Source: a virus
Length of the DNA: 40,299 bases
IMG/VR virus record: IMGVR_UViG_3300020123_000125
Coordinates: 1 to 40,299 of that record
Strand: one strand, 5' to 3'
The position numbers were made by a program, and so were the translations under genes. Below are positions 1,058 through 23,607 of the stretch, in pieces. Positions within the stretch are counted from its first letter, which is position 1; each line of letters starts with the position of its first letter. Under the pieces are notes generated by a model that was not told the DNA's origin, ran no database searches, and saw nothing but the letters and a program-made list of their open reading frames with translations.

Positions 1058-1063
1058 GGGCGC

Positions 1064-1091
1064 ATACTACCATAGTGGAAATCAGTGTCAA
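1064..1091 (-). promoter_or_regulatory. Sigma70-type promoter, leaderless layout
   Basis: On the - strand: TTGACA (1091-1086), a 16-bp spacer, TAGTAT (1069-1064) preceded by TGG, giving an extended -10. The gap to the RHH start codon is 6 bp, so the predicted transcription start is at or within a base or two of the ATG. The -35 is preceded by C (CTTGACA), as at four other promoters in this window. Confidence 0.7.
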
Positions 1092-1105
1092 GACCTAATT
1101 TGCGG

Positions 1106-2629: not shown

Positions 2630-2633
2630 TGAG

Positions 2634-2804: not shown

Positions 2805-2847
2805 GCCCTCACCTCCGGCCCTGCGCCTACATGGAGCGCCTTGCGCC

Positions 2848-3096
2848 TCAATGCCAATGTTCTTTTACCTCGCCGCAGATTGGGCAGGGGAATTTGCTGC
2901 TTACCGGGTAGCGCCCTGCCGCTCCGTGATGCCGTCCGCTTCCGCCTGTCTTTTTAGCTTCCGCCGTGCGCCATGAAATGCATTCAGCATTCATCCGCGA
3001 GATTCCATTCGGGCAACAGAAGCAAGATTTAGCGCCGCGCAATTCGTAGAAGTCGTCCAGCGCAACGCGTTCCATCGTTTCGCGCATCTCGCTCAT
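2848..3096 (-). CDS. Small Cys-rich protein (82 aa)
   Basis: The chosen start is the ATG that overlaps the preceding stop as ATGA (protein begins MSEMRETMERVALDDFYEL); an in-frame ATG seven codons upstream would lie inside the neighbouring gene. Two Cys clusters, SCFCCPNG and FPCPICGEVKEHWH, form a probable zinc ribbon with the terminal His. The middle is Gly/His/Lys rich. It is one of several small Cys-rich proteins in this arm. Function is unknown. Confidence 0.65.
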   Translation of the reverse strand: MSEMRETMERVALDDFYELRGAKSCFCCPNGISRMNAECISWRTAEAKKTGGSGRHHGAAGRYPVSSKFPCPICGEVKEHWH

Positions 3097-3515
3097 GCGG
3101 ATTTCTTTTTGCGGCAATCACAGAGAACTGCCCACTTTTGCCCATTTGCATTTGGTTTTTCTGTAAGTCTAAATCCTTCGCCTTTGCATATCTCGCAGTG
3201 CGAAGGTTCTATTTCGGGTATTTGTTCTGGCCGTCTTTCGGCGGGAGCCGATATAGTTACGGCATTCCTGATCTGCGCTGGTGTCGGCATGTATTCAGAA
3301 TGGTGCGCCAGAAGATACCTCGTAGCCCGGATAATCTGAAACCCTTCAAGACCATCAAGTCCGATTGCGTAGGCCATTACCCCGATCTCAGTGAGTTCGT
3401 GTCGGAAGGCTGCGCACAATAGGCGCAATGATTGGTCCAGTGCCTCCGAGAACTTTATGGATTGCGTCGGCTGATCGGTTGTCTCGTTCGATTGCTTTTG
3501 ATGCTCCATTCCCAT
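3093..3515 (-). CDS. Zinc-binding protein downstream of the replication initiator (140 aa)
   Basis: The N-terminal ~85 residues are helical (FSEALDQSLRLLCAAFRHE, then a segment ending MPTPAQIRNAV), resembling the helical domain of phage helicase-loader/inhibitor proteins that probe residual template structure. The C-terminus has a zinc module CEICKGEGFRL ... VLCDCRKKK. The start is preceded by GGAG. It overlaps the 3' end of the initiator gene by 128 nt, which is long but consistent with dense packing. The initiator-plus-loader order is common in temperate and lambdoid-like phages, so a helicase-loading accessory role is plausible. No ATPase motif is visible. Confidence 0.65.
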   Translation of the reverse strand: MGMEHQKQSNETTDQPTQSIKFSEALDQSLRLLCAAFRHELTEIGVMAYAIGLDGLEGFQIIRATRYLLAHHSEYMPTPAQIRNAVTISAPAERRPEQIPEIEPSHCEICKGEGFRLTEKPNANGQKWAVLCDCRKKKSA

Positions 3516-5238: not shown

Positions 5239-5568
5239 TCATTCAATCCCCTTGATCGCATCTTCCAGCGAATAGGCTAAAATGTAATGCCCTCCAGCGC
5301 GCGTGAACTCCACCGAGAACTCTATTTGCTTGGGGCTCTGCTCGCCGCTCGCTGCTTTTACTTCGATGCCATAGAGCGTGCCGTCGCGCAAAGCGAACAG
5401 ATCCGGCTGGCCTAAGCGCCCGAAGCGAACGAAGCGAGATTTACCGTTGTGCTTGGCATGCATCGCGCCCGTATTGGCTCGCCAGTAGAATATGCGGCGC
5501 ACCTTAAGCCAGTCGATTATCTGGCCTTGGATATCGCGCTCGCTGAGATCATAGTTAGGTTTTTTCAT
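5239..5568 (-). CDS. VRR-NUC domain nuclease (109 aa)
   Basis: A minimal PD-(D/E)XK nuclease of the VRR-NUC family, typically acting on branched DNA. Motifs in order: an N-terminal ERDIQGQIIDWLK helix with the conserved Glu/Gln, ANTGAMHAKHNG, then GQPDLFAL (Asp56), GIEVKA (Glu69, Lys71) and a following SPKQIEF with the conserved Gln. The full catalytic set is present and the length is normal for stand-alone phage copies. It overlaps the upstream Ala-rich gene by 14 nt. It may act as a Holliday-junction resolvase or debranching enzyme in recombination-dependent replication with the ERF protein. Confidence 0.85.
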   Translation of the reverse strand: MKKPNYDLSERDIQGQIIDWLKVRRIFYWRANTGAMHAKHNGKSRFVRFGRLGQPDLFALRDGTLYGIEVKAASGEQSPKQIEFSVEFTRAGGHYILAYSLEDAIKGIE

Positions 5569-6265
5569 CGGCCTTTAGCGCACACATCCGCTTAACAAGC
5601 TCAACCGCCGATAGTTGGAGTTCTTCTTTGGTTTTAGAGAGTTTTGCCCCCGCAGCGTCCCTCGCAGCGGCCCCCGCAGCGGCCCACGCAGCGGCCCCCG
5701 CAGCGGCCCCCGCAGCGGCCCCCGCAGCGTCCCACGCAGCGTCCCACGCAGCGGCCCCCGCAGCGTCCCCCGCAGCGTCCCCCGCAGCGGCCCCCGCAGC
5801 GTCCCACGCAGCATAAGCATCCTCTCTGACCGCTTCTATGGTTGGTTTAATTCCTGGAATTTGCGCCATTCCAGTTATTTCCGGCAATGAGGCCAGACGG
5901 TCAGCCTGAGTGTTCAGTCCGGCGAACCTAAGCCATGCAACGGTATGCGTGCGTACAAGCCAATCGGCGCACATGAGCGAGCGCCGTTCTTCTAGAGATT
6001 TATTTCTCGTATTGATAAGCATAGGAATCAAAGGCTTGAGAAGTCTATCTCTCTCCGTATCGGAAGGAAGCGCGTCATTCCACGAACGCATGAAAGCACC
6101 GATTACAGGGCAAGCACATTCCGGTGAATCGGACCATTTCTCGCCAGCAACAAAGGCCACCGCTTCCATCACGCAGAAAGTAGAATCAGGCTCATGACCT
6201 CCAGATTTCAGATTGAGCCCTTGCAACTTTTCCCACCGCTCCAATAGCATTTCAACTTTTGTCAT
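5555..6265 (-). CDS. Phage protein with Ala-rich tetrad repeat (236 aa)
   Basis: The start is preceded by GGAGGGAA and overlaps the previous stop (ATGA). Residues 1-145 form a conserved soluble domain with the motifs CVMEAVAFVAGE, CACPVIGAFMRSWND and DRLLKPLIPMLINTR, followed by SLMCADWLVRTH; I recognise this as a recurrent uncharacterised phage family. Residues ~155-207 are a tandem tetrad repeat of the form (G/W)(A/D)AA, which should form a long helix with a Gly/Trp stripe every four residues (GxxxG-like). A short charged helix closes the protein. Function unknown; the repeat could mediate helix packing or oligomerisation. Confidence 0.85.
   Translation of the reverse strand: MTKVEMLLERWEKLQGLNLKSGGHEPDSTFCVMEAVAFVAGEKWSDSPECACPVIGAFMRSWNDALPSDTERDRLLKPLIPMLINTRNKSLEERRSLMCADWLVRTHTVAWLRFAGLNTQADRLASLPEITGMAQIPGIKPTIEAVREDAYAAWDAAGAAAGDAAGDAAGAAAWDAAWDAAGAAAGAAAGAAAWAAAGAAARDAAGAKLSKTKEELQLSAVELVKRMCALKADEKT
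5651..5806. repeat. 13 x 12-bp tandem repeat (CGCAGCGKCCCM-type)
   Basis: Thirteen back-to-back 12-bp units of CGCAGCGgCCCc with limited variation at two or three positions (G/T and C/A/T). On the - strand each unit encodes four residues: GAAA, GDAA, WDAA or WAAA. The period is exact, so unit number could vary by slippage. Confidence 0.9.
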
Positions 6266-10982: not shown

Positions 10983-11144
10983 GTCTTTGTTGAAAGCAAA
11001 AGAGTTATTTGTGTGTTGCATCGAGCTTGTGATGGTGCTAAGGTACGCCTAGTGAGTAAGATCGCCCTCCGAAGTAAGTAGCATCCCACCCCAGGCATAT
11101 ACTAAGCGCATCGACTACATCGCCTACCGCACATTATGTTGCAT

Positions 11145-11161
11145 CGTGTACATTCTACACG
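11145..11161. promoter_or_regulatory. Operator-like dyad CGTGTA-N5-TACACG
   Basis: A perfect 6-bp inverted repeat around CATTC, 17 bp in all, inside the control region and immediately after the second TGTTGCATCG copy. Size and symmetry fit a dimeric repressor site. Confidence 0.4.
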
Positions 11162-11263
11162 CTTTAGATTGCTTTCCTAATCTTCTATCACCCTCGGATC
11201 ACCCCTCCGGCATGCTCAAACACTAGCTATGAGCAGCGTTCCGAAAATAAAAATATAAAACTC

Positions 11264-11292
11264 TTGCATCATTTAACGTCGTGTGACATAAA
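11264..11292 (+). promoter_or_regulatory. Promoter, leaderless layout
   Basis: TTGCAT (11264-11269), 17-bp spacer, CATAAA (11287-11292) preceded by TGA (extended -10), then 7 bp to the ATG at 11300. Confidence 0.5.
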
Positions 11293-11299
11293 GTGACGC

Positions 11300-11686
11300 A
11301 TGAAACGGAGGTTTCGCAATCCGGTGAAGTTGCAGGTGTATTTGGAGCGAGAGGAGCTGGATTGTTTGATGGGGGTTATCGGTGAGGGGAACGTTAGCCA
11401 GTGGGCGAGGGGAGTGCTGCTAAAGGCTGTGCCAGGTTCGAGTGTTTCTGGATGCATGGAAGGCTCCGGAGGTGGTGAATTGAATACTCGAGTCCAGCGA
11501 AAGGCAGTGAGGAATGCTAGGCAGAAACCGTCCATGGAAGATTTCAGTCTAGCCCAGGGAAGCACTGGAAAAGTTAGTGAGATGTTTGATAGGCCGCCAG
11601 TGGTAGAAGGCAAGACGTGCAGGCACGGGACGAAGGCGGGATGGAACTGCGGTCTTTGCGGGGGGATAGCGAAGGTGGGGGTATGA
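11300..11686 (+). CDS. RHH-like protein with C-terminal zinc motif (128 aa)
   Basis: The N-terminal ~48 residues (FRNPVKLQVYLEREELDCL then GNVSQWARGVLLKAV) have the strand-helix-helix layout of RHH regulators. A Gly/Ser/Arg linker (about 50-95) follows, and the C-terminus carries TCRHGTKAGWNCGLCGG, a C-x2-H...C-x2-C zinc motif. Fusion of these two modules is unusual. The start follows a promoter by 7 bp with no Shine-Dalgarno. It heads a coupled unit with the sugar-nucleotide gene. Base use (GGG, TTG, AGG codons) looks unlike the downstream late operon, by eye. Confidence 0.68.
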   Translation: MKRRFRNPVKLQVYLEREELDCLMGVIGEGNVSQWARGVLLKAVPGSSVSGCMEGSGGGELNTRVQRKAVRNARQKPSMEDFSLAQGSTGKVSEMFDRPPVVEGKTCRHGTKAGWNCGLCGGIAKVGV

Positions 11687-12630
11687 GGTATTTGGTGACG
11701 GGTGGGGCGGGGTTTATTGGGTCGCACTTGGTTGATGAGCTGGCGCAGGGTAGTGACGTCTTGGTTTTTGATGATTTCTCTACGGGGAGTCACAGGCACG
11801 AGAGTCCTAGGGTACAAAGGCAGGTAGCGTCTGTTTTGGAGTACTCGTTGGTTGAGAAGGCGATTCGGGAGTCTGATTTTGTGTTTCATTTGGCGGCATC
11901 GGTGGGGGTGCGGGAGATACTGCGGAGCAATATTCTGTCGATAAAGAATAACGTGGAGGGAACGAGTTGCGTGCTTGAGGCCGCGTCTGAGTCGAAAAAG
12001 CCCGTGCTGATCGCTTCGACTTCCGAGGTTTACGGGAAGAGCGAGGAGATTCCTTTCCTCGAGGATGCGGATTTAGTGCTTGGCCCAACGACGAAGGGGC
12101 GCTGGAGTTATGCGGCTTCGAAGGCGCTCGACGAGTTCATGGCGCTGGCCTACCACAAGGAGCGCGGACTTCCGGTGATTGTGGTGCGCCTGTTTAATAC
12201 GGTGGGGCCTCGCCAGGTGGGAAGCTATGGGATGGTACTTCCGGGGTTCATTAGTCAGGCCTTGGCGGGTGAGCCGATAACGGTTTACGGAAGCGGGGAG
12301 CAAAAAAGGTGCTTCTGTGACGTGCGCGACACGGTGAAGGCCATAATGCTTTTGTCGCAGAACCCCAAGGCCTTTGGGGAGGTTGTTAATATCGGCTCGG
12401 AGCGGGAAATTTCTATCAACGAACTGGCCGAAGTTGTGAAGGCAAGGACGGGAAGCAGTTCGCCCATCGTGCATATTCCCTACAGTGAGGCTTACGATCC
12501 GGGCTTTGAGGACATTGAGCGCCGCGTGCCGTGCCTGGACAAGCTAGTTTCGCTGACCGGCTTTAAACCCCAAACAAGCATCGAGGAGATTGTCGATCGC
12601 ATGGTAGAGCATATGGCGGTACCCGCGTGA
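11683..12630 (+). CDS. NAD-dependent sugar-nucleotide epimerase/dehydratase (extended SDR)
   Basis: A complete 315-residue extended short-chain dehydrogenase. The start is the ATG overlapping the previous stop (ATGA). The NAD site is TGGAGFIG (residues 6-13), the substrate region includes ASTSEVYGKS (Ser/Thr ~112-114) and the catalytic YAASK (Tyr143, Lys147), followed by VVRLFNTVGPRQ and AGEPITVYGSGEQKR. These fit the UDP-glucuronate decarboxylase, UDP-glucose 4-epimerase and dTDP-glucose 4,6-dehydratase group; the exact substrate cannot be fixed. Followed by glycosyltransferase- and methyltransferase-like genes with overlaps, it probably makes a modified sugar donor. Confidence 0.88.
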   Translation: MRYLVTGGAGFIGSHLVDELAQGSDVLVFDDFSTGSHRHESPRVQRQVASVLEYSLVEKAIRESDFVFHLAASVGVREILRSNILSIKNNVEGTSCVLEAASESKKPVLIASTSEVYGKSEEIPFLEDADLVLGPTTKGRWSYAASKALDEFMALAYHKERGLPVIVVRLFNTVGPRQVGSYGMVLPGFISQALAGEPITVYGSGEQKRCFCDVRDTVKAIMLLSQNPKAFGEVVNIGSEREISINELAEVVKARTGSSSPIVHIPYSEAYDPGFEDIERRVPCLDKLVSLTGFKPQTSIEEIVDRMVEHMAVPA

Positions 12631-13181
12631 TCGACGTTTTTATCCGCTCCTATACGCCGGACGCGGTTCGCAAGGGATTGGCCGACGCCTGTATCGCCCG
12701 CTGGCAGATGGAGCCCGATGCCCGCGTGCACGTTCTTGAATCCGACACCGATGAACTTTACGCGACCACCACGCTTAGGACGTTCTCCGAGCGGAACGCC
12801 ACTTCGGACCCTTATGTTTTTACCGACGACGACGTTATGATTCTTGGAAAGGATTGGCTGAAGATAGCCGAGAATGTCCTGAAGGAACCGTTCGGAGTTC
12901 TTTCGACACTTTCTATTGTTGAGGGAGAGAATTCCGCCAAAGCCCCATTCGATCTACCAGACAGGGCTGCTTACGAAATGCACGCGGTTGGCGCTCCGTC
13001 AATTATTCGCAAGGGAATTTTCACCGATCTGCCGCCCATGACTATCGGAAACGAATGCGGAACGCTGCACAAGATTTGCCTCGATAAAGGCTATCGCATG
13101 GGCCTAATCAAAGGACTTCGGCATTCGCACTTGGGCCATGGCCTGACAATTTATGAGCCTGGATTGAGGTGGGGAGTATGA
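12627..13181 (+). CDS. Glycosyltransferase-like protein (184 aa)
   Basis: A GTG start overlaps the epimerase stop (GTGA). The N-terminus IDVFIRSYTPDAVRKGLAD is a GT-A-type nucleotide-sugar fold start, and VFTDDDVMIL (Asp67-69) provides the metal-binding DxD motif. Residues GTLHKICLDKGYRMGLI and HSHLGHG toward the C-terminus fit the acceptor half of small GT-A enzymes. It is shorter than typical GT2 proteins, so it may have a minimal acceptor domain. With the upstream epimerase it would use or transfer a sugar. Acceptor unknown. Confidence 0.72.
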   Translation: MIDVFIRSYTPDAVRKGLADACIARWQMEPDARVHVLESDTDELYATTTLRTFSERNATSDPYVFTDDDVMILGKDWLKIAENVLKEPFGVLSTLSIVEGENSAKAPFDLPDRAAYEMHAVGAPSIIRKGIFTDLPPMTIGNECGTLHKICLDKGYRMGLIKGLRHSHLGHGLTIYEPGLRWGV

Positions 13182-13711
13182 GCGCCTGGTACTGGAATTA
13201 TGAGCACCTATCGGAGCCATTTGCCTACGGCCCCGATACGACCTATGAAGCGGCCGCAAAGTTTCTGGATGGAGGTCCGGTCGAGGATTGGGGCTGCGGA
13301 ACCGGCTACGCCAGGAAGTTCTTTCCCAAGGGGTATGTCGGTATCGATCTCGCTCCGCCATTCTCCGACGTGTGCACCGATATCAGGAATAGACTCTCTC
13401 TCAGCCATGTTCTTTTGAGGCATGTTCTTGAGCACAATGAAGACTGGGAGAGGATTCTTAAAAATGCTCTATTCTGGAAACGTGCTACCCAAGATTCAGC
13501 TCGGCGCAAGGTCGCCATCGTGATCTTCACGCCGTTCTCCGATCGCACGCACGTCATCGGCATGTCCCGGAAAGAAGGCTGCACGCCTGTTCCCGACATA
13601 TCATTTCGCAAGGAAGATTTGACCCGACATTTCCCGCAATACAAAGAGCAAGAGTTTGAAACCGGAATCGCCTACGGCAAGGAGACGCTGTTCTGCGTAA
13701 CTATTCCTTGA
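13178..13711 (+). CDS. Class I SAM-dependent methyltransferase (177 aa)
   Basis: The start MSAWYWNYEHLSEPF overlaps the upstream stop (ATGA). Motif I is VEDWGCGTGYAR (about residues 36-47), followed by YVGIDLAPPF for the ribose-binding acidic loop and LLRHVLEHN as the post-II/motif IV region, all typical of class I methyltransferases acting on small molecules or sugars. The C-terminal part (TPFSDRTHVIG) is consistent. It is the last gene of the sugar cluster; the late promoter lies across its stop codon. O- or N-methylation of a glycan is a reasonable inference, not proven. Confidence 0.78.
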   Translation: MSAWYWNYEHLSEPFAYGPDTTYEAAAKFLDGGPVEDWGCGTGYARKFFPKGYVGIDLAPPFSDVCTDIRNRLSLSHVLLRHVLEHNEDWERILKNALFWKRATQDSARRKVAIVIFTPFSDRTHVIGMSRKEGCTPVPDISFRKEDLTRHFPQYKEQEFETGIAYGKETLFCVTIP

Positions 13712-13736
13712 CACCCTACAGCGAACGCCTTATAAC
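13708..13736 (+). promoter_or_regulatory. Late-operon promoter
   Basis: TTGACA (13708-13713), 17-bp spacer, TATAAC (13731-13736), the best consensus match on the + strand. The -35 overlaps the stop codon of the methyltransferase. The predicted start near 13743 precedes the Shine-Dalgarno AGAGGTGA and the ATG at 13757. It should drive packaging and head genes. Confidence 0.75.
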
Positions 13737-13756
13737 TCATGGCCAGAGGTGAAGCC

Positions 13757-14011
13757 ATGGGCAGACAGTTTGCCGACGATGCAATGACCCCGGAGCCGAT
13801 CTCAGTCTCGCGGGATGCCGCAATGGATGAGATTCCCACCGATCGCCCCATGCACGAAAACACAACCCCTGGAGAATCGGGAGGTCTGTATCAGGGCTTG
13901 CACTATGCGAAAGACTTCAAATCCTACGGCGTAGAGGTTGCCTCGGTTGCTCCCTCGCGAGAAACGATGGACGTCAATGTTCACAAGGCCGACCGTGGCA
14001 GCGAATCTTAA
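13757..14011 (+). CDS. First late gene, hypothetical (84 aa)
   Basis: I use the ATG after AGAGGTGA; an earlier in-frame ATG at 13739 would be upstream of the predicted transcription start. The protein is polar and likely disordered (DDAMTPEPISVSRDAAMDE, then PMHENTTPGESGGLYQG). No family recognised. Its last 17 nt overlap the next gene. Confidence 0.6.
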   Translation: MGRQFADDAMTPEPISVSRDAAMDEIPTDRPMHENTTPGESGGLYQGLHYAKDFKSYGVEVASVAPSRETMDVNVHKADRGSES

Positions 14012-14132
14012 AGACGCCGAACTTGAGGCGATGAAAAAGCGCCTCGCCGGAGCCAAGACCAACAAAATGGCGAAGAAGCCTCCCCTACGCCAGCGCACCG
14101 TAATGAACTTCGGAAACAAGGCGGTGAAGTGA
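13995..14132 (+). CDS. Small basic protein (45 aa)
   Basis: GTG start inside the end of the previous gene; the stop overlaps the next ATG (ATGA). The sequence AANLKDAELEAMKKRLAG followed by NKMAKKPPLRQRTV is strongly basic and helical at its N-terminus. Such short basic proteins before the terminase may bind DNA or the capsid interior. The coding call rests on coupling to its neighbours. Confidence 0.5.
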   Translation: MAANLKDAELEAMKKRLAGAKTNKMAKKPPLRQRTVMNFGNKAVK

Positions 14133-14263
14133 TGAAAGCCATGCTCTCGGCCATGAAGAACCGGCTCTCGAATAAAGGCAAGATTTCTCCCGTTGCCGCT
14201 AGTGCCAAGGCGCACAAAACTTCCTGGGCCAAAAAAGGCGCAAGTTTCTCCGGTAAAAAGTAA
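14132..14263 (+). CDS. Small basic protein (43 aa)
   Basis: It starts at an ATGA overlap and ends in TAATG with the next gene. The sequence MKAMLSAMKNRLSNKGK and KAHKTSWAKKGASFSGKK is Lys/Ser rich with no acidic residues. Virion DNA-binding or a minor head protein is possible. No homology recognised. Confidence 0.52.
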   Translation: MKAMLSAMKNRLSNKGKISPVAASAKAHKTSWAKKGASFSGKK

Positions 14264-14754
14264 TGGGACAGATCAACACGCGCGAAGTCGTTCTGCTTAA
14301 CTCAACCGCCGTCACGACTAGCGGAACCGGGCCCGACATCAACGTAATCCAGGGATGGCAGGCGGCAATCGTCAGCGTCGTTTCGGCCAGCGTCTCCGGT
14401 ACTTCTCCGACCTTCGATGTCTATGTCCAGAAAAAGCTAGGCCAGCCTGCCGCCGCCGACACGACCGGAAATCCTCCTACCGGCACGGGAATCTACGACG
14501 ACATTCTGCACATCACGCAGATTACGACTAACGGCACGCGCATCACTCAGCTTTGCACCGGGCCTTTGTCTCCTTCGGCTAACGCCACTACCGTTACCAG
14601 CGCCGACTGGGCGCAATCGGATGCGGCCCTGACTGCCGGAGCTATTCGCGTCGGCCCTATCGGGGGCCTATGGCGAGTGAAGTATGTCGTGGGAGGAACC
14701 TCCCCTTCTTCGACGTTGCAAGTCACCGTTCAGCTCATACCGTTCAGCACCTAA
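14263..14754 (+). CDS. Predicted beta-rich virion protein, paralogue A (163 aa)
   Basis: Almost entirely beta-forming Thr/Ser/Val/Gly sequence: VVSASVSGTSPTFDVYVQKK early and WRVKYVVGGTSPSSTLQVTV at the end. The same two-motif layout recurs in the gene at 23149-23607 (VQTVSGTSPTMYVALA ... LRWVVGGTSPSFAFQVQV), so the two are probably paralogues. The fold is likely a single beta-sandwich. One copy precedes the terminase, the other follows the capsid; capsid decoration or head fibre is the most natural role. This is inferred from sequence character and position. Confidence 0.7.
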   Translation: MGQINTREVVLLNSTAVTTSGTGPDINVIQGWQAAIVSVVSASVSGTSPTFDVYVQKKLGQPAAADTTGNPPTGTGIYDDILHITQITTNGTRITQLCTGPLSPSANATTVTSADWAQSDAALTAGAIRVGPIGGLWRVKYVVGGTSPSSTLQVTVQLIPFST

Positions 14755-14757
14755 AAA

Positions 14758-16452
14758 GTGACCGAACGCACCATCACCGCAGAAGAAATCAAGAAAAAGC
14801 TGGATCACCTTCTCATTATCCGCCAGGCGGCGCGTACCGATCTTCTCTACCTCTGCAATAAAATACTGGAATACCCCGATGTAACCAAGGAAGTTCACGG
14901 CCCAATCATCGACCGGCTACAGAAATTCCATGGCGGAACTGAACATCTTTCAAGTATGGGCATCATCGGCTACAAGCCAAAAGTCCCAATTCATAAGCTC
15001 GCCAGAGTTCCGCACAAGGACAAGCTATTTCTCGATCCGCGCGGGAACCTTAAGACTACGGTTATCACCATCGCGCACTCGATCCAATGGATTCTGAATT
15101 ACCCGGATGTGCGTATCGCTCTTTCCATGGCGATTGGCGACCAGACCAAAAAAGTGATGACCGAGATTAAGGGGCACTTCCAGTACAACAAGACGTTTCG
15201 CATGGTCTTTCCAGACTACTGCCCACCGCCCAAGCGCGTGAACGATTGGGGCAACATGGAAGAGTTTACGGTCGCCATGCGCGAGAAGATGCGCAAGGAA
15301 CCTACGCTCTGCTTGATTACTATTGGTAAGGTCATCGCCGGTTCGCACTACGATGTAGTGAAGCACTCGGATTTGGTCGATGAGAATAACGTCAAGACTC
15401 CGAACCAGATCGCGGATGTCATATCGCACTTCGGACACATGGACCCGCTGATTGAGCGCTACCCCACAGATAATCCGGAAGAGCCTGCGCACGGCTGGCA
15501 GGATGTGGAAGGCACGCGCTATGACTTCGGCGATCTCTACGGAATGCTCTTGGATTCCAAGGAATGGGACTGCCATGTGCGGTCGGTGTACCGTCCCGAT
15601 GGAACGACGCTCGATATGCGGAGATTTCCTCCGGCGGAGGTTGACCGTATCCGGCGTAAGCCGGAAGTAACGCCGTACATCTTTTCTTGTCAGTATGAAA
15701 ATAATCCCATCCCGCCAGAGGGAGGCTTGTGTGACCCGAAAGATATCGTGTTCGTTCCTCGGCAATTCATTTCCAATATCCTTCCCGGCCTGCGGATCCA
15801 CTGCACAATCGACCTCCACGGCATGGAATCTTCATTGGGCGACAACGATTACACGGTGCTTACTGTGGCAGGTTTCGACCGCGACGGACGGATGTACGTC
15901 TTGGACGTTCGCCGAAAACGTTTTACTCCCGACCAAGTAATCGGAAACGTGTTCGATGTGTACGACAAGTGGAAGCCTATCGACTTCAAGATTGAAAAGG
16001 ATGCTCATGCGCGCGTGCTCCTACCGTTTCTGCACAGGGAAGCATCTAAGAGGCAGCGATTCCCCACGATGGTTCCTATTAAGCGCGACAATCGAACGTC
16101 GAAACAGCAAAGAATACGCGGTCTTCAGCCTTGGTTTAAGGCTGGGGTCATCCGTTTTGCTGACGACCTTCCGTGCAAGACCGACCTCATACGCGAGATT
16201 ATGCAGTTTCCTTCGCAGTCGTCCGGTGTACACGACGACATCTTGGACACATTAGCCGACCAGATGCAGAACCAGGAAGGCGGAGTAAACGACGACGTGG
16301 TAGCCGATATGTCGCCCGATCTTGCCTATCAGTTCGGCCTGCAGAAGCCGCGCGATAAGTTCCTGGGATTCAACGATGACGGCACCGAAAATTGGCTCTA
16401 TGGCGGGGACACGGGAAAAGGGGTATATTCCCCTACGGGATTTCTACAATAG
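14758..16452 (+). CDS. terL: Terminase large subunit (564 aa)
   Basis: The ATP-driven packaging motor with nuclease. The N-terminal ATPase has a Walker A-type DPRGNLKTT (about residues 93-101), and a Walker B-type region around DVVKHSDLVDEN (199-210). The RNase H-like nuclease has CTIDLHGM (Asp352), DNDYTVLTVAGFDRDG with Asp364 nearby, and HDDILDTLA (about 492-500) as the last acidic group. Length is typical. It uses a GTG start 3 nt after the previous stop and is followed directly by the portal gene. The probable small subunit is encoded on the other strand. Confidence 0.92.
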   Translation: MTERTITAEEIKKKLDHLLIIRQAARTDLLYLCNKILEYPDVTKEVHGPIIDRLQKFHGGTEHLSSMGIIGYKPKVPIHKLARVPHKDKLFLDPRGNLKTTVITIAHSIQWILNYPDVRIALSMAIGDQTKKVMTEIKGHFQYNKTFRMVFPDYCPPPKRVNDWGNMEEFTVAMREKMRKEPTLCLITIGKVIAGSHYDVVKHSDLVDENNVKTPNQIADVISHFGHMDPLIERYPTDNPEEPAHGWQDVEGTRYDFGDLYGMLLDSKEWDCHVRSVYRPDGTTLDMRRFPPAEVDRIRRKPEVTPYIFSCQYENNPIPPEGGLCDPKDIVFVPRQFISNILPGLRIHCTIDLHGMESSLGDNDYTVLTVAGFDRDGRMYVLDVRRKRFTPDQVIGNVFDVYDKWKPIDFKIEKDAHARVLLPFLHREASKRQRFPTMVPIKRDNRTSKQQRIRGLQPWFKAGVIRFADDLPCKTDLIREIMQFPSQSSGVHDDILDTLADQMQNQEGGVNDDVVADMSPDLAYQFGLQKPRDKFLGFNDDGTENWLYGGDTGKGVYSPTGFLQ

Positions 16453-18549
16453 ATGGCTTACGCAGATGCAGGCGTAATAGCAACACCTGAGAACGTTCCG
16501 CAGCTTCCCATAAAGAAGCCCGATGACAAGTGGACCGACGATTACGCCCGGCGCATCGTGCGTTCCGATTTCGCTTATGCCGAAGCCTACCGGACCAACG
16601 CTCACGATTGGAGATACAGGAACGCTTCCGAGCTTTATCTCGCCTGGAGCGGCCAGCGTTATTGGGATGGCACTCGCGTGCCGCGATCTTCCATCGGCAT
16701 CTACGTGGTATTTGAGCAGGTCGAGGCGATGCTCCCGAAAATTGTCGCGGCGCTCTGCGACCCCGATTCTCAGAACTTTTATGCGATGCGTTCGGACCAG
16801 AAGGACCACGCCCTTGCTTGGAGGCGGCTAGTTCAGGACCAGCTCGACGAAGTGAATTACCGCGAGCAGGTGCGCAGGATTTGCAAGTCTTCGCTAGTCT
16901 ACGGAAACGGTGTGGGTGAGGTCGGCATGGAGGATTATTACCAGGAAAACGTAGAGTTCTCGCGCTCTCACCGCGTGACTAAACTGGGCATCATTCCGCA
17001 TCCGGTTCTGGGGAATGTTCCCTTTCCGCTGGACATGGAAGAGAGTTTTTCTCGCAGCGTCACGCGCAGCAAGAAGTCCAGGCCCTATCTTCGGTATACC
17101 AGCCTGATCGATTTCTATGTGGACCCAAACTGCGAATCGACCTGCCTTCAGGATGCGCAGCACGTTGAAAAGCGCGTCTATAAGACGGTTGGTGAACTTC
17201 AGGCCTTGCGAGGGAATAAGAACTTCTCGATTCCCGACGATCAGACCTTAATGGAATATAGCAAGGCCAAAACCACGGCCAATCAAGACGTTACCAAGCT
17301 ATCGGCGGAATTGTTTCGTTTTAACATGTGGAACCCTTCACAGGACTATTCCTCCGACCCTTCGCAGAAACGAATTGAAGTCATAGAGTACACGACCAAA
17401 GAGCGCAAGGTGTGGCTGCTTAACCGAGACCATGTGGCCTATAACCAAAAAAACAAATATGGAGAAATCAACTATTTCTCGACTCATTACGCCGATGTTC
17501 TGGACCGCTGGCACGCGCTGGCAATTTCGGATGTAGCCGAAGGCGAGCAGCGGTTGCAACAAGCGATTATCAATGCCCGCCAGGATGAGTTGGCTCTTTC
17601 GATTCATCGCCCGATGGTTAAACGGCGCGGAGTTACCATCCCTCCCTACCAACTCAAAGTTAGGCCGGGAGTTGTGATTGAAACCGAAGCTCCCGAAGGC
17701 GATATCAAGCAACTTGAAGTTCAAAATATCACCCAGCAAGCCTTCGTTGAAGTGCAGGCCTCGGCGCAGCGCGTGCAGGCCATGACCGGAATTACCGACC
17801 TTGCCGCCATCGGAGCGCCATCGGCGGGAGGCAATTCAGCGAGTCGCACGGCAACCGGCGTCAACACGCAAGTAGGCGCAACCAATGACCGCGTGGGCTA
17901 TTACATTGAGAACGCCGAAAACAACTTAATGGAGCCAATCCTTAACGCCATCATCAAGTACGACAAAAAGTTTCTGGATATGAACTCGGCGGTAGCGTGG
18001 CTCAAGGCCGACCCGGACTTTAATCACCTGGACCCAGTAGAAGTAATGAATTGCGACGTGAAGGCCGAATGCAGGGCTTCGGTGCGCATGAAGGCCCGCA
18101 TGGGTTTCCTGCAAATCTTCCCGCAACTCTCACAGACCTATCTCAATCCGGAACTTCTCAGCCTGATGGCCCAGCAGCGGAAGAAGACACTCAACATCGA
18201 TGAGTGGACGGACATGGCGATGGATGCAATTCAGTACGCTCCGCGCAATCCGCTCTGGATCGATATGTCCGACGAGCAAAAGCAGGCAATGTCGCAACCT
18301 CCTCCGGAAGCAAAAGCCAAGATGGCGATGCAGCAACAGCAACTCGCCGCCGACAAGAACAAACATGACAATCAGAACATTACCAAGCTCCTTACAGTCG
18401 TGCTTAAGGAGTTGCTCCAGAAGCATACACAGACTCAGCAAATGGACGACGATCACTTACATGAACTTCTTTCAGCGCAGACGGCCCAACTTGGATCCGG
18501 AGAAGACGAGCCTGGAGCAGGTGAAGGAGATAGTGGACAAGGCGGCTAG
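16453..18549 (+). CDS. Portal protein (698 aa, podovirus type)
   Basis: Starts at the base after the terminase stop. Size and order fit a dodecameric portal of the P22/T7-like class: DVAEGEQRLQQAIINARQD and a helical QNITQQAFVEVQASAQRVQ stretch followed by MTGITDLAAIGAPSAGGN, the conserved region that precedes the barrel in podoviral portals. N-terminal residues 30-120 contain YRNASELYLAWSGQRYW and a PKIVAALCDPD segment typical of the clip/wing domain. The C-terminal 80 residues are Gln-rich and helical. It would form the DNA channel and bind the terminase and tail adaptor. Confidence 0.88.
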   Translation: MAYADAGVIATPENVPQLPIKKPDDKWTDDYARRIVRSDFAYAEAYRTNAHDWRYRNASELYLAWSGQRYWDGTRVPRSSIGIYVVFEQVEAMLPKIVAALCDPDSQNFYAMRSDQKDHALAWRRLVQDQLDEVNYREQVRRICKSSLVYGNGVGEVGMEDYYQENVEFSRSHRVTKLGIIPHPVLGNVPFPLDMEESFSRSVTRSKKSRPYLRYTSLIDFYVDPNCESTCLQDAQHVEKRVYKTVGELQALRGNKNFSIPDDQTLMEYSKAKTTANQDVTKLSAELFRFNMWNPSQDYSSDPSQKRIEVIEYTTKERKVWLLNRDHVAYNQKNKYGEINYFSTHYADVLDRWHALAISDVAEGEQRLQQAIINARQDELALSIHRPMVKRRGVTIPPYQLKVRPGVVIETEAPEGDIKQLEVQNITQQAFVEVQASAQRVQAMTGITDLAAIGAPSAGGNSASRTATGVNTQVGATNDRVGYYIENAENNLMEPILNAIIKYDKKFLDMNSAVAWLKADPDFNHLDPVEVMNCDVKAECRASVRMKARMGFLQIFPQLSQTYLNPELLSLMAQQRKKTLNIDEWTDMAMDAIQYAPRNPLWIDMSDEQKQAMSQPPPEAKAKMAMQQQQLAADKNKHDNQNITKLLTVVLKELLQKHTQTQQMDDDHLHELLSAQTAQLGSGEDEPGAGEGDSGQGG

Positions 18550-18808
18550 TTTTGACCGCCTGGTTCACGAATCCGGATGGGCGGAAATCGGTCTGTTCAT
18601 GGCGAACCAGATCAACACCGAACTAGCGAAGGCGACCGAGAAGCCGTTCGAGCCGGAAATGCAGCGCGTGCATGTAATCCGCTGGGACGCCATGCGCTCG
18701 TTGCTCGATTCGGCCACGGGATACATTGAAGGAATACAGAAGTCGCGGGATGAGATAGTCGCCCAGTTTGGGCCAAAGGAGAGTGAGCATGTCGAGTCAG
18801 CCGTTTGA
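18461..18808 (+). CDS. Hypothetical protein overlapping portal 3' end (115 aa)
   Basis: The ATG giving MNFFQRRRPNLDPEKTSLE lies 89 nt inside the portal gene; a later GTG after AAGGAG is also possible and would shorten it. The body is helical (QVKEIVDKAASFDRLV, TELAKATEKPF, DSATGYIEGIQKSRDEIV). It lies between portal and scaffold, where some podoviruses have small head-assembly proteins. Function unknown; the start is uncertain. Confidence 0.6.
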   Translation: MNFFQRRRPNLDPEKTSLEQVKEIVDKAASFDRLVHESGWAEIGLFMANQINTELAKATEKPFEPEMQRVHVIRWDAMRSLLDSATGYIEGIQKSRDEIVAQFGPKESEHVESAV

Positions 18809-19496
18809 GTTGCAACTGGAGGACGGAACTGTAGTTAAGGCTCCGAACATCGAAGAGGGCTTGAAGATTGTGGCTAAAATGAAAACAGATACCGCCGCCG
18901 CTCTCCGCGAAGAGCGCACCAAGCGCGAGGCCTTGGAACAACAGCAAACCGCCCTTGCCGCGCAGGTTGAGCAACTTCGCCAGCAAAGCCAGCCCAAGCC
19001 GCAGAATAACGGCGGCTACGACAAGGACCATTACTGGAAGCTAATGAATGAAGACCCGATGCTGGCGCAGAACTACCTGGACGCCCACCGCTTCGGAATC
19101 GAGAACCCCGAAGAAGTCCCGACCACCTTCCGCAGATTGCAAGAGGATGTGCAAAAGAATCGCGGCGATCAGCTTGGGACGCTGTTTATCCAGCAGCATT
19201 ACGAGGACTTCCCGGCAACGCCAGAGAGCGCCGACAAACTTGCCAAGCGCGTCAAGGAATTGAGCGACCAGGGCTATCCGCTGACACTCGACACGATGAA
19301 CCTTGCCTATTCCAAGCTCATTGACGAAGGTTCGATTAAGCCTCTTGAAACCAAGCCGCGCGAACAGGAAGAGCCCAATCCTTCCCTGGGAGGTTCCGGA
19401 GCTAGCGCCATCCCCGAAACCGAACTTGCCAAGGCCGAACAGATGCCCACCGATGAACTTGAGAAGTATCTGCGGGCCAAGGGGATGCTCGCCTAA
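18789..19496 (+). CDS. Head scaffolding-like protein (235 aa)
   Basis: Start at an ATG after AAAGGAGAG. The N-terminus is beta-like (FELQLEDGTVVKAPNIEEG), followed by a long coiled coil (AALREERTKREALEQQQ, then LAAQVEQLRQQSQPK; about residues 36-70), and an acidic, Pro-rich C-terminus (ETKPREQEEPNPSLGGSG). Position immediately upstream of the capsid block and this charged helical make-up are typical of scaffolds, which organise capsid subunits and then leave. Alternatively it is an internal head protein. Confidence 0.72.
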   Translation: MSSQPFELQLEDGTVVKAPNIEEGLKIVAKMKTDTAAALREERTKREALEQQQTALAAQVEQLRQQSQPKPQNNGGYDKDHYWKLMNEDPMLAQNYLDAHRFGIENPEEVPTTFRRLQEDVQKNRGDQLGTLFIQQHYEDFPATPESADKLAKRVKELSDQGYPLTLDTMNLAYSKLIDEGSIKPLETKPREQEEPNPSLGGSGASAIPETELAKAEQMPTDELEKYLRAKGMLA

Positions 19497-19723
19497 TGGC
19501 CGAAATCATCGCTAGGGGGATGCCGAAGGACGATAGGCGCATATCCTATGAGGCGGCTGGCTATATGGAGCTTGCGGAGGCCGAAAAGGACTCTGACTGC
19601 GCCAAGGTGTCTGTTCCCGGAGGAGTCAGTTCGGAACTCGGTTGCTGCAATTTTTATGAACCGCAGGCTAAGTTTACGAAATCTTTCAAGTGCGGCGTGT
19701 GCGATTACTTGGTGCTCAAATAA
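19496..19723 (+). CDS. Small Cys-containing head-operon protein (75 aa)
   Basis: Start overlaps the scaffold stop (TAATG). Residues DDRRISYEAAGYMELAEAE precede four to five Cys residues: DCAKV, GCCNFYEP and KCGVCDYLVL. The pattern recalls small Cys-rich proteins found in many phage head operons, sometimes compared with high-potential iron-sulfur proteins, but it is divergent here. Metal binding is likely; role unknown. Its stop overlaps the next ATG. Confidence 0.62.
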   Translation: MAEIIARGMPKDDRRISYEAAGYMELAEAEKDSDCAKVSVPGGVSSELGCCNFYEPQAKFTKSFKCGVCDYLVLK

Positions 19724-20154
19724 TGGAAATCTTCATCGCCTACACCAAGTTATCGAGCATTGACGATCTAGGTCAGACTATTGAATCCTGGGATGCTATT
19801 GAGGCTGCCGAGCCAGCGGCTATCGAAGTTCCGGTAAGCAAATACGAACTGTTCCGCAGGGTTTCGGCTGAGAACATTTCAACCGGAGACTACATCCTCT
19901 CCGATATCGGACATGTCCCTTCCAATCCGGATATTGTCTCGATCTGCGAGAAACTGCTTATTGAGAACAAAACCGTAGGCCTTTTTACCTTTGACGACAG
20001 CGTGCACCTGTGCCGCAAAGGAATCATCGAGAAGTGGCCCGAAAAGCAGTCCACCTACTACCTTTCCGAGCACAAGCAGGCGTACCGGCTGTCCGGATAC
20101 GGAGCGATTAGTTGCAAAGAGGAATTCATACGCCGTCTGGCAGCCTTCTCGTAA
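19723..20154 (+). CDS. Hypothetical protein (143 aa), possible glycan-related
   Basis: Start at the TAATG junction: MEIFIAYTKLSSIDDLGQT. Mixed alpha/beta, with VSKYELFRRVSAENISTGDYI, a LLIENKTVGLFTFDDSVH segment and a C-terminal SEHKQAYRLSGYGAISCKE. I do not recognise a catalytic signature. It lies between scaffold and a histidine phosphatase, followed by a GT-A enzyme, so it may belong to the same sugar-related group, on context alone. Confidence 0.62.
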   Translation: MEIFIAYTKLSSIDDLGQTIESWDAIEAAEPAAIEVPVSKYELFRRVSAENISTGDYILSDIGHVPSNPDIVSICEKLLIENKTVGLFTFDDSVHLCRKGIIEKWPEKQSTYYLSEHKQAYRLSGYGAISCKEEFIRRLAAFS

Positions 20155-20756
20155 TCGGGGTGCGTCACGGTTCGACCGAAGGAAACGCCAAGGGAGTACT
20201 GCGGGCATGGTCCGACATGTCGCTTGATGCGCACGGCAAGATCGATGCGCAGATGGCAGCAATGAAGATAGCTCCTTACAAGCCGAAGTTTATCTACTCT
20301 TCTGACTTAACCAGGGACTCACAGACCGCTGAGATTATCGGTCAGAAGTTTGGGCTTCCCTATGAAACAGATTTCGGATTGCGGACTGCCGACATGGGTG
20401 AGTGGACCGAGCAGCCGGAAGAGGAAGTTAAAGAATTAACCAAGGACTGGTACCAGCAAGGATTTGAACGGGCTGGTGGTGGGGGCGATACCTACATAGG
20501 ATTCTGCACCAGGTTCTTTCAGAGCTTCGATCAAAAACTCACGCAGGCTGAATGTGAATCGTTCCAGCCAACCGTGTGCTGTATGCACGGACGCAACTTT
20601 GCGGCGCTGCACTCTCGCTATTCAGGGGTCGCTCCTTGGGAGGCAAAGATGCCCCTGCCGGGAGGCGTGGCGCTGTTCCGCTACAATTGGCCGGACTTTC
20701 CGCCGATCACTATGGAGTTTATTTCCGAAACGGAGCCTATTTTAGATGACCGCTGA
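20112..20756 (+). CDS. Histidine phosphatase superfamily protein (214 aa)
   Basis: The N-terminus contains VIGVRHGSTEGN, the RHG phosphate pocket whose His becomes phosphorylated. Further motifs fit the phosphoglycerate-mutase/phosphatase branch: IYSSDLTRDSQTAEIIG, the acidic LRTADMGEWTEQ, and VCCMHGRNFAALH, supplying the second catalytic His. I start at a TTG 8 nt after GGAG, overlapping the previous gene by 43 nt. Such enzymes are rare in phage head operons. Next to glycosyltransferase genes it could remove phosphate from a sugar or act on a protein; substrate unknown. Confidence 0.85.
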   Translation: MQRGIHTPSGSLLVIGVRHGSTEGNAKGVLRAWSDMSLDAHGKIDAQMAAMKIAPYKPKFIYSSDLTRDSQTAEIIGQKFGLPYETDFGLRTADMGEWTEQPEEEVKELTKDWYQQGFERAGGGGDTYIGFCTRFFQSFDQKLTQAECESFQPTVCCMHGRNFAALHSRYSGVAPWEAKMPLPGGVALFRYNWPDFPPITMEFISETEPILDDR

Positions 20757-21483
20757 ACCAACCAAGATTTTGCTGGGCATACTGAGCACCTACGAGAGAA
20801 GCGGCTGGATTCATCCGGACATCTTGAAGTTCGTTGCCGACCTTTCTTTAATCCCCGGATACGCAACCCGTGTCGTGCCTCTGCATAACTTCGTTCCAGC
20901 CGCGGCTGGCAGGAATGTGTTTTGCCGGTCGTTCAAGGACGCCGACTGCGACTGGATTTGCATGATGGATAACGACATGGCCCCTCCTGCGAACCTATTC
21001 GATACCATCAAAGACGCTCCTAAGAATGCAGGTATCGTCGTACCGGCCTTTTTCATCTGGAATGGAACGAATGGAGAGCTTCAACTTTGCTGGGGAACCG
21101 ATAAAACCCCAGACAAGGACGGTAAGACCAGAAGCAACTTTTCTCCTGGATTCCATGAGCTAAACAAGTGCGGAACGGGAGTCATTTTCATTCGCCCGTG
21201 GGTTCTTAAGAAAATCTCCATGCCCTATTTTTGGTATATCTATAACTCCGACCAAGGCATGGACGGCACCGAAGACATTGCCTTTTGCAGCAAGGTGCGC
21301 GAGGCGGGCATTAAAATTTACGGGAATACGAAGGTGACCGTGGGTCATTACCACGCTGTCGATTTGAACCTTCTCTCCAAAGTTCTTGACAAGGCTAGGA
21401 AAGAGGGATTATCTTTTTCGCACAACGCTGAACGTCCTTCAGCGCCCGCAGAGGCAAGTCCTGCCGACGCGCTAATCGCATAA
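20746..21483 (+). CDS. Glycosyltransferase family 2-like protein (245 aa)
   Basis: The start overlaps the phosphatase end by 11 nt. KILLGILSTYERSGWIHPD opens a GT-A fold; CMMDNDMAPP (Asp75, Asp77) is the DxD metal motif, and GTGVIFIRPWVLKKI followed by QGMDGTEDIAFCSKVREAG matches the catalytic Glu-Asp acceptor region of GT2 enzymes. KVTVGHYHAVDL gives the C-terminal His common to this group. Length is normal for phage GT-A proteins. It precedes the capsid gene by 64 nt and is likely expressed with it, suggesting capsid or virion glycosylation. Confidence 0.82.
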   Translation: MTAEPTKILLGILSTYERSGWIHPDILKFVADLSLIPGYATRVVPLHNFVPAAAGRNVFCRSFKDADCDWICMMDNDMAPPANLFDTIKDAPKNAGIVVPAFFIWNGTNGELQLCWGTDKTPDKDGKTRSNFSPGFHELNKCGTGVIFIRPWVLKKISMPYFWYIYNSDQGMDGTEDIAFCSKVREAGIKIYGNTKVTVGHYHAVDLNLLSKVLDKARKEGLSFSHNAERPSAPAEASPADALIA

Positions 21484-21547: not shown

Positions 21548-22528
21548 ATGGCATATTCGCCAGCTGGAAATACAACGGCCAGTGCAGGCCTAGCTCATCT
21601 AGCCACAGTCTGGTACAACCGGCGCGGCCTCGATCAGCTTAAAAAGCGCTTCCGTTTTTATAACGCATGCGAGCCAGACATGGTTCCACGGCGCTCCGGA
21701 AAAACCGTTCAATGGTTCCGTTACAACTTGTTGGGAGCCAATACCACGCCTGCCCCAGAGGGCACAGTCGGTAACTCCAATACTCTTTCGAGCACCACCC
21801 TTTCCGGGACGGTTGCCGAATACTCCGACTTCATCACCGTCTCAACGCTTCTCGATGAAACCGCTATCGACCCCATCGTGCAGAACGGAGCCGAGCAGCT
21901 TGGGTACTCTGCCGGTCTTTCGGTCGATACGATCATCAAGGCGGCTTTTGACGGGCAGTCCGGAGCGGTTCTTTCACCGGCCACTTTGGGCACCTATGCG
22001 ACGGTTGACGATTTGCGCCGCTGCAAGGCGATTCTTGAAGGAGCCGATGTCAGGCCGAAGGATGATCGCTATTACTACGCGATTCTCCATCCCTACATCA
22101 TCTACGACATCAAGTCCGATTCAACTGCGGGCGGGTTCATCGACTTGATGAAGTGGGCCGACCCGAAGGTGTTCTTGGAACCGGCTAATCCATTCGATGA
22201 TCCGGTCGGGATTGTCGATAACGTCAAGATTTGGGCTACCACAAACGTGACTACGACTGGCTCGGCACCGAATGTACTCTACTCGTCTTACGTGGTAGGG
22301 CGCGGCGCGGCGGGAGCGGTTGATCTGCAAGGTTCTGGTCCGTCGAAGATTGAAGACCCGTCCAAGCAGGCTTTCCGCATCAACGTGATTCGCGGTGGTC
22401 CGCAGATCGCCGACCCGGCAGGAATGATTGGCGCGGCTGTCTCTTACCGTTACGTGTTCCTTGCTCAAATCCTCGATACGGTCAACTTGCGCTACAGGAT
22501 ATTCAAACCTGACGCAAGTTTGGTGTAA
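21548..22528 (+). CDS. Major capsid protein, N4-gp56 family (326 aa)
   Basis: The N-terminal TVWYNRRGLDQLKKRFRFY and VPRRSGKTVQWFRYN, then EYSDFITVSTLLDETAIDP and EQLGYSAGLSVDTIIKAAF, are the hallmark segments of N4 gp56-like HK97-fold major capsid proteins. Later parts (YYAILHPYIIYDIKSD, AFRINVIRGG) also fit, and the length is normal. A strong AGGAGG lies 11 nt upstream. A weak possible promoter (TTGACA at 21386) exists in the preceding gene. It assembles the head with the scaffold and portal products upstream. Confidence 0.88.
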   Translation: MAYSPAGNTTASAGLAHLATVWYNRRGLDQLKKRFRFYNACEPDMVPRRSGKTVQWFRYNLLGANTTPAPEGTVGNSNTLSSTTLSGTVAEYSDFITVSTLLDETAIDPIVQNGAEQLGYSAGLSVDTIIKAAFDGQSGAVLSPATLGTYATVDDLRRCKAILEGADVRPKDDRYYYAILHPYIIYDIKSDSTAGGFIDLMKWADPKVFLEPANPFDDPVGIVDNVKIWATTNVTTTGSAPNVLYSSYVVGRGAAGAVDLQGSGPSKIEDPSKQAFRINVIRGGPQIADPAGMIGAAVSYRYVFLAQILDTVNLRYRIFKPDASLV

Positions 22529-22543
22529 AGGAGATAACCGAAC

Positions 22544-23134
22544 ATGCCAAACGCAAGCACAGTATCCAGAATGGCTGGAGCGAACGCTCCGGCGCAAGGT
22601 TCCTTGGTTATCCCCTCGCTGACACTGGCAAGTAACACGGAGACGCTTTTTTCTGTACAGTCCGGTGGCGCTGCCATTCTCTATCCGCAACCTACCGGGC
22701 AAGTTGTGGGAGCGTCCACGGCCCCCAGCTTTGGTTCCGGCTACGATGGCTTTCCTTTCAAGCTTCGCGCAGCATTCAAGGTGACGACTGGAGGAACTTC
22801 TACCGCTATCATCTCGATCTATGCGAACCAGGTAGGAACAACCATCACCTCCGGAAACAAGGTGGCGACGATTACTTCGCAGTCCCTTGCCACTGCCTCG
22901 GCTTCGGGTTGGCTTGAAGCAACGCTGATTTGGGATTCGGTTGGCTTGAAGCTCTCTGGAGGACAGCAAGGTTCCTTTGGGACCACGGTTGTCACCGGAA
23001 ACGCAGCTCTTACCAATACCGCCATTTCCATTCCCGCGCTGACAAACCTCAACTTCTCGATCACGGCGAACCTAGGTTCCAACGTGAGCGGGTCGATATT
23101 TACGATCACGGAATTCGTGATCGATGAAGTGTAA
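22544..23134 (+). CDS. Predicted beta-sandwich virion protein (196 aa)
   Basis: Preceded by AAAGGAGA and located directly after the capsid gene. Sequence is Thr/Ser/Gly/Ala-rich beta: PFKLRAAFKVTTGGTSTAI, ISIYANQVGTTITSG, WLEATLIWDSVGLKLSGG and a terminal LNFSITANLGSNVSGSIF then FVIDEV. The gene at 32979-33512 shows the same plan (LxWD, then LGFTVTGTF, then FELG), so both may share a jelly-roll or sandwich fold. Head decoration is likely from position. Confidence 0.72.
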   Translation: MPNASTVSRMAGANAPAQGSLVIPSLTLASNTETLFSVQSGGAAILYPQPTGQVVGASTAPSFGSGYDGFPFKLRAAFKVTTGGTSTAIISIYANQVGTTITSGNKVATITSQSLATASASGWLEATLIWDSVGLKLSGGQQGSFGTTVVTGNAALTNTAISIPALTNLNFSITANLGSNVSGSIFTITEFVIDEV

Positions 23135-23148
23135 AGGGGGAAGAACAG

Positions 23149-23607
23149 ATGCCTAATTTTGGACAATTCCCGCAGACCTCAACGCTTCTTGCGCTCGCCA
23201 CGGTTACGACGAGCTCATCGAGTGCGGCGTTGACACTTCCTCCCGCTTCGAGCTACCGCGTCATCGTGCAGGTCCAGACCGTTTCCGGTACTTCGCCTAC
23301 GATGTACGTGGCCCTAGCTACTTCGCTTGATAACGGGACGACTTACAATGAGATTCTTTCGACCACCACGCTCAATACGAGCGGCGTTGGCGATCAACTT
23401 CTCATTCGCCCGTATCTTGGGCTTGGCGATGTGGCAGCGCGTGCGGCTACTTCCCTTCTGGGAACAGCCGACCTCGGAGCGAACGTCGTTAACAACGGTC
23501 CAATCAACCCGCAGCTGATTAAGTTGCGCTGGGTGGTTGGTGGAACCTCTCCTTCATTTGCTTTCCAAGTGCAAGTCTTGGCTCTTCCGCAGGACTTGTC
23601 CGACTAA
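23149..23607 (+). CDS. Predicted beta-rich virion protein, paralogue B (152 aa)
   Basis: Preceded by AAAGGGGGAAG. Shares VQTVSGTSPTMYVALA and LRWVVGGTSPSFAFQVQV with the 163-residue protein upstream of the terminase. Entirely beta-type sequence between these motifs, with LLGTADLGANVVNNGPIN in the middle. With its neighbour it follows the capsid gene, the usual position of decoration or head-fibre proteins. The paralogy is by eye. Confidence 0.72.
   Translation: MPNFGQFPQTSTLLALATVTTSSSSAALTLPPASSYRVIVQVQTVSGTSPTMYVALATSLDNGTTYNEILSTTTLNTSGVGDQLLIRPYLGLGDVAARAATSLLGTADLGANVVNNGPINPQLIKLRWVVGGTSPSFAFQVQVLALPQDLSD

Follow-up and report, generated by a model that had tools for sequence, protein, structure and literature searches.

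A glycosyltransferase cassette between the scaffold and capsid genes

We analysed a 40,299-base virus record (IMGVR_UViG_3300020123_000125; G+C content 53%), hereafter called the window, which originates from an uncultured soil phage. Directly before the gene of the major capsid protein (MCP; 21548-22528, +) lie three genes in which each end overlaps the following start. They encode a shortened, degenerate glycosyltransferase relative (denoted X; 19723-20154, +), a histidine phosphatase of branch 1 (HP; 20112-20756, +) and a GT2-like glycosyltransferase with a GT-A fold (GT; 20746-21483, +). A first-pass annotation had placed HP and GT between scaffold and capsid; this order was confirmed, with X, missing from its gene set, as an additional gene between scaffold and HP. 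The same annotation had named three further enzyme genes upstream, encoding an extended short-chain dehydrogenase/reductase (SDR), a small GT-A-like protein and a methyltransferase; all five of its enzymes are real in the sense that they are open frames carrying the motifs named.

The head-gene setting was established from the terminase large subunit (TerL; 14758-16452, +; phrog_38, 5.8e-65), the portal protein (16453-18549, +; phrog_1216, 1.9e-24) and an MCP of the N4-gp56 family (TIGR04387, 2.7e-25, 89.3 bits versus a cut-off of 60), which together assign the window to podovirus-like phages. A probable scaffold protein (18789-19496, +) was assigned by its position between portal and cassette, which is kept in relatives; its open reading frame (ORF) reaches back to 18768, and a ribosome-binding-like site precedes the ATG at 18789. 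By MCP, the closest isolate is Tunturiibacter phage Tunturi_3 (27% identity), an Acidobacteriota podovirus (PMC11924767). A DNA similarity search with the TerL-portal region yielded no similar known phage.

GT is a predicted GT-A glycosyltransferase

GT matched PF00535 weakly (0.018), PHROG 1574 at 5.9e-9 and PHROG 34859, annotated 'glycosyltransferase', at 3e-4; the GT alignment gave no Pfam match at 0.01. The predicted model (pLDDT 72.5) adopts a GT-A fold, and the sequence contains both the DXD motif and the acidic catalytic motif of this class. The corresponding DND and TED motifs, together with GHxH, are invariant in an alignment of all complete GTs of the window's lineage (defined below). 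Nonsynonymous divergence (dN) of GT is 0.2-0.4 with synonymous sites near saturation or with high synonymous divergence (dS), which fits purifying selection.

The best solved fold match is STIV A197 (E 3.2e-10, target TM 0.67, 16% identity); the next matches are Mimivirus R699, lysyl hydroxylase LH3 and collagen galactosyltransferase. Several of these enzymes modify proteins. A197 is an essential glycosyltransferase whose proposed target is the STIV coat protein, with donor and acceptor unsettled (PMC10551542); STIV itself is a tailless archaeal virus, unlike the window phage. The 19-residue hydrophobicity maxima of the SDR, the upstream GT-A protein, the methyltransferase, X, HP and GT do not exceed 1.2, indicating no membrane span in any of these enzymes, and the acceptor is therefore probably cytosolic.

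X and HP accompany GT as degenerate or atypical partners

The predicted model of X (pLDDT 86.5) shows a GT-A-like fold, for which WrtF and the PBCV-1 capsid glycosyltransferase (E 7e-4) occupy the top ranks with modest E-values; a comparison of X with PDB sequences gave no credible match. X has neither a full DXD motif nor a complete acceptor half, retaining a single acidic residue at the motif position. In two related contigs (L122 and L124) it is reduced to ~90 residues, and this acidic residue is lost as well. In hidden Markov model searches of 11,200 frames, the X profile detected the upstream GT-A protein of contig L106 at 9.9e-6 and, reciprocally, the upstream GT-A profile detected X of contig L123 at 2.3e-4. 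By these reciprocal matches, X and the upstream GT-A protein belong to the same remote family. Profile comparison of GT with the upstream GT-A protein, X, the mycobacteriophage Che8 proteins gp109 and gp110 and the glycosyltransferase of podovirus ctQWt234 revealed no significant link.

HP (PF00300, 3.8e-28) retains the Arg-His pair, the second Arg and the second His in all ten aligned copies. At the position of the catalytic acid, the motif reads RT-(x)-(D/N)-(x)-G in ten of ten, where solved relatives read RE, and one relative's HP has RHA instead of RHG. The first-pass statement that all key motifs are intact thus applies to the SDR, the GT-A protein and GT but goes too far for HP, in which Thr replaces Glu throughout. 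HP may nevertheless be active, since the acid position varies in the superfamily.

The nearest solved relative of HP is glucosyl-3-phosphoglycerate phosphatase, which raises the alternative that GT and HP modify a metabolite or host protein, for example in a glucosylglycerate-like synthesis. That match is modest, however (~3e-15 at profile level), and is equalled by a general phosphatase; glucosyl-3-phosphoglycerate synthase is absent from the top 50 fold matches of GT, and HP lacks the canonical Glu. Such a pathway would account for the pairing of a glycosyltransferase with a phosphatase but not for the tight linkage to MCP, and we regard it as very unlikely.

The X-HP-GT core is conserved in its lineage

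We defined the lineage by an MCP scan, independently of the sugar genes, which yielded nine contigs at 81-91% MCP identity and one at 40%. All eight of the nine closer contigs that extend back to the scaffold gene show the order scaffold-X-HP-GT-MCP; the ninth starts just before GT, which is present. One more contig, found via X, runs from scaffold through X and HP into the first part of GT and ends there, before MCP. The cassette was not detectable in the relative at 40%. Among the pairs measured, local identity to the window copies is ~44-66% for GT, ~32-47% for HP and ~26-40% for X, and these values indicate that the three genes are old in the lineage rather than recent cargo. The cassette is conserved far beyond chance.

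The universal presence of GT in these contigs also bears on the idea that its targets are hydroxylated bases in the phage DNA. Virus glycosyltransferases that act on DNA are known (Pyle 2024, cited in PMC12619734), and the window carries a C5-cytosine methyltransferase gene. That methyltransferase, however, is unmatched in the related contigs, no base hydroxylase or hydroxymethylase was found among the window genes scanned (some small ORFs remained unscanned), and GT sits among head genes rather than replication genes. DNA hypermodification is accordingly the least probable of the explanations considered, and we judge it highly improbable.

Several features of the same interval were observed in passing. 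Homing-endonuclease-like ORFs, apparently of at least two kinds, lie between GT and MCP in L019 (10653-11132, -), L020 (9897-10439) and L123 (9461-9982). Tunturi_3 (L014) has a GNAT acetyltransferase gene (5821-6246) just before MCP, where the window lineage has X-HP-GT. MCP itself is 81-91% identical within the lineage, compared with ~50-65% for TerL and portal.

The GT family recurs beside head genes in other phages

A search of phages and viral contigs with GT as a single sequence gave no match; a two-sequence GT alignment used as query gave 297 matches. We collected 77 distant homologs by GT sequence alone, 72 of which have a detectable upstream gene. In 65 of these 72 loci the upstream gene belongs to one family, identified through two representatives as a major head protein (phrog_2263); in one such representative, the gene that comes next encodes a head-tail adaptor. 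The 65 loci come from related phages and were counted as one context. Other homologs adjoin MCP genes of phrog_9953 (L003), phrog_371 (L009) and phrog_267 (L028), a portal gene of phrog_12 (L052), or annotated MCP genes in ctvy9321/ctyzp037/ct2t2046, ctkAd229 and Mel-JY34, the last being a cultured Microcystis phage. About nine of sixteen distinguishable contexts, the window lineage included, are head-linked, and in three (LS06, S-SSM7 and L023/L024) the family clearly stands elsewhere or beside other genes; the other four count towards neither group. With an assumed background of 10-20%, a binomial estimate of the head linkage is 6e-5 to 1.5e-3, a rough guide given that contexts were delimited by eye.

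The window GT matches both PHROG 1574 and PHROG 34859, whose other members adjoin MCP genes; the GTs of the window lineage branch off divergently from these and have X and HP as extra partners. No paper describing a family-wide association with capsid genes was found in a literature search of openly licensed papers. We propose, tentatively and with less confidence than we attach to the function of the cassette itself, that GT may belong to a widespread, unnamed, capsid-adjacent family responsible for head decoration in a wide range of unrelated, uncultured tailed phages, and that in the window lineage it may form a fixed unit with X and HP.

Modification of the host surface is a frequent role of phage glycosyltransferases (PMC12619734), and the genes could be late-expressed cargo that alters host surface polysaccharide to block re-adsorption or to free new virions. 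Sets of SDR, glycosyltransferase and methyltransferase genes also make host surface glycans, and PHROG classes related GTs as host-takeover genes. This explanation is weakened by the lack of a GtrA/GtrB-like membrane glycosyltransferase or flippase: no GtrABC-type component was found among the cassette enzymes, the remainder of the window having been checked only in part. Co-expression with head genes would, moreover, be late, and in phages unrelated to one another the GT family is repeatedly found with MCP genes. We therefore consider action on the host surface unlikely.

A variable slot of sugar genes precedes the packaging genes

The SDR gene (11683-12630, +) encodes an extended nucleotide-sugar enzyme (Pfam PF01370 Epimerase, 1.2e-51) with TGGAGFIG and YAASK motifs. 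Its nearest solved relatives are UDP-glucuronate decarboxylases (PDB 4lk3, 7.8e-49, with TSE and YxxxK aligned), and it possesses the core of these enzymes, namely an extended SDR with TSE and YxxxK, residues that are common to other extended SDRs. As TSE and YxxxK do not discriminate, a specificity such as UDP-glucuronate decarboxylase could not be assigned; every NCBIfam match fell under its curated cut-off, so that no single specificity passed.

The following gene encodes the small GT-A-like protein with a TDDD motif (12627-13181, +), the remote homolog of X. It has no Pfam, PHROG or NCBIfam family, and homologs were found in L122 (1327-1908) and L106 (3717-4253). The third gene (13169-13711, +) encodes a class I methyltransferase-like protein with sub-threshold matches to Pfam Methyltransf_23/11 (0.003-0.04) and no homolog in the relatives searched. 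Both assignments should be taken as provisional, resting as they do on weak or remote similarity.

The SDR occurs in three genomes, the window and two of six related records searched. The upstream GT-A protein is likewise found in three (window, L122 and L106), each time adjoining a methyltransferase-like gene, and the L122 slot additionally holds a radical SAM gene. Slot genes precede a shared small gene and the packaging genes in the window, L002, L122 and L106. In the window this small gene (13739-14011, +) encodes a conserved protein that closes the slot, with homologs between slot and TerL in L002, L122 and L124. The slot occupied by the SDR, GT-A and methyltransferase genes, ahead of the packaging genes, is therefore variable in content, unlike the fixed X-HP-GT core. 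A late promoter that had been postulated before TerL found no support: a consensus scan returned three promoter-like sites versus seven expected by chance, none of them in 13711-14758.

The universal core and the variable slot, with its radical SAM gene in L122, could reflect two unrelated cargo sets, X-HP-GT acting on the virion and a swapped slot acting on another target. This arrangement would fit the core of the explanation we favour, glycosylation of a virion protein, but conflicts with its upstream half. X and the upstream GT-A protein are, however, members of one remote family, which suggests a single glycan system, and Corndog holds a methyltransferase and glycosyltransferases together in its head module. 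Two separate sets are in our estimate somewhat unlikely, though less so than the host-surface, metabolite and DNA explanations.

Virion-protein glycosylation as the probable function

Soluble enzymes, an overlapping cassette, conservation in close relatives and a GT family beside head genes all point to cytosolic attachment of a sugar to a virion protein during head assembly, which we consider probable. The placement among head genes, the association with MCP in different phages and the Corndog precedent favour a virion protein as the acceptor. X, HP and GT are probably made together with the head proteins as a soluble glycosylation unit. The first-pass annotation had proposed that the five enzymes could jointly build and methylate a sugar on a virion protein or glycan; virion glycosylation remains the best-supported function, but only X-HP-GT is fixed, and the five do not form one conserved pathway.

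From the observed genes, their order and conservation, and the predicted folds and motifs, we infer activities for the proteins, a sugar, an acceptor and roles for X and HP as follows. GT would bind a nucleotide sugar through DND and a metal ion and move the sugar onto an exposed, cytosolic site of a virion protein, most likely MCP or one of the Ser/Thr-rich proteins whose genes immediately follow. In this model X is probably non-catalytic and would partner GT or the acceptor. HP probably takes phosphate off a sugar-phosphate intermediate or a phosphorylated glycan, which is the least certain step. The upstream slot may supply tailoring, in which the SDR would alter the nucleotide sugar, the second GT-A protein extend the glycan and the methyltransferase cap it.

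The candidate acceptors after MCP are two putative small head or decoration proteins (22544-23134 and 23149-23607, both +), which were assigned by their conserved position. Their Ser plus Thr contents are 26% and 23%, respectively, versus ~9-15% in most other proteins from SDR to MCP, and they are candidates by this composition. A further Ser/Thr-rich protein, encoded before TerL (14263-14754), resembles the product of 23149-23607 via relatives, both matching the same L002 regions; the pair is likely a duplicated decoration protein.

Several observations weigh against glycosylation of the virion. The canonical catalytic Glu (RExxxG) is Thr in all ten HPs. HP homologs follow MCP in two sister podoviruses, L008 (17537-18205) and L006 (17981-18550, degenerate-looking), with X or GT undetected nearby, and HP may thus have a head-related role of its own. 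GT homologs accompany replication genes in LS06 and baseplate genes in S-SSM7. The window GT profile did not match any Firecracker protein, and GT could not be linked by homology to the proven mycobacteriophage capsid glycosyltransferases. An MCP scan of 84,980 genomes for a prophage or host gave no match. Gene position indicates likely co-expression rather than the identity of the acceptor, and late cargo genes could cluster by head genes for other reasons.

Comparison with known systems

The arrangement had been called unusual, which holds in part. In the Corndog-type (cluster O) mycobacteriophages, a methyltransferase and glycosyltransferases lie inside the head module from portal to capsid (Corndog gp35-gp38, Firecracker gp33-gp36; Firecracker served as the Corndog relative for gene order and profile comparison). 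Corndog carries its O-methyltransferase gene and its glycosyltransferase genes in the stretch from portal to protease, and its authors suggested capsid modification (PMC4351075); virion glycosylation was reported later, with gp38 described as essential for it (PMC12363180). The window resembles this kind in having glycosyltransferase genes in the late head module and a methyltransferase in the region. The window methyltransferase, however, precedes TerL, whereas that of the Corndog type follows the portal gene; Corndog-type phages are siphoviruses with a different capsid family and no match to X or HP, whereas the window is podovirus-like.

In Che8 the glycosyltransferase cluster gp108-gp110 lies at the genome end and not between portal and capsid; gp110 is described as essential for capsid glycosylation (PMC12363180). 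Che8 matched a broad glycosyltransferase profile weakly (gp108 at 7.7e-4, gp110 at 3.6e-3), and profile comparison with GT gave one short local alignment around the DXD region. In podovirus ctQWt234 (MW202801), whose MCP is related to that of the window (25%), radical SAM, GT2, PhyH, methyltransferase, NodB and GT4 genes follow closely after MCP; these enzymes differ from those of the window, stand after rather than before MCP, and include no match to X or HP.

Proof of virion glycans is so far limited to a few phages. If the GT family acts as predicted, virion glycosylation would be common in environmental tailed phages and predictable from gene order, with a bearing on phage stability, adsorption and recognition, and the degenerate glycosyltransferase X and the conserved phosphatase HP would acquire a new setting. 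The gene layout has a precedent in Corndog; the wider capsid-adjacent family is the more interesting outcome.

Additional features

The unrelated phage L009, with its phrog_371 MCP and two subsequent GT4-like genes, has a Corndog-like layout, in which a methyltransferase-like gene (5250-5852) lies between TerL and portal and three glycosyltransferase-like genes (11011-13674) follow MCP. In L123, TerL (877-3327) is split by ~250 residues that are intein-like, with a Cys start, a LAGLIDADG-like LSGLFDGEGS motif and a terminal Asn-Ser. Two window proteins contain long, Ala-rich, degenerate repeats of AAWDAAGAAAG-like and AAYAAA-like kinds: one is encoded at 5555-6265 (-), and the other at 1-420 (-), at the left end of the window, where it is cut by the contig end.

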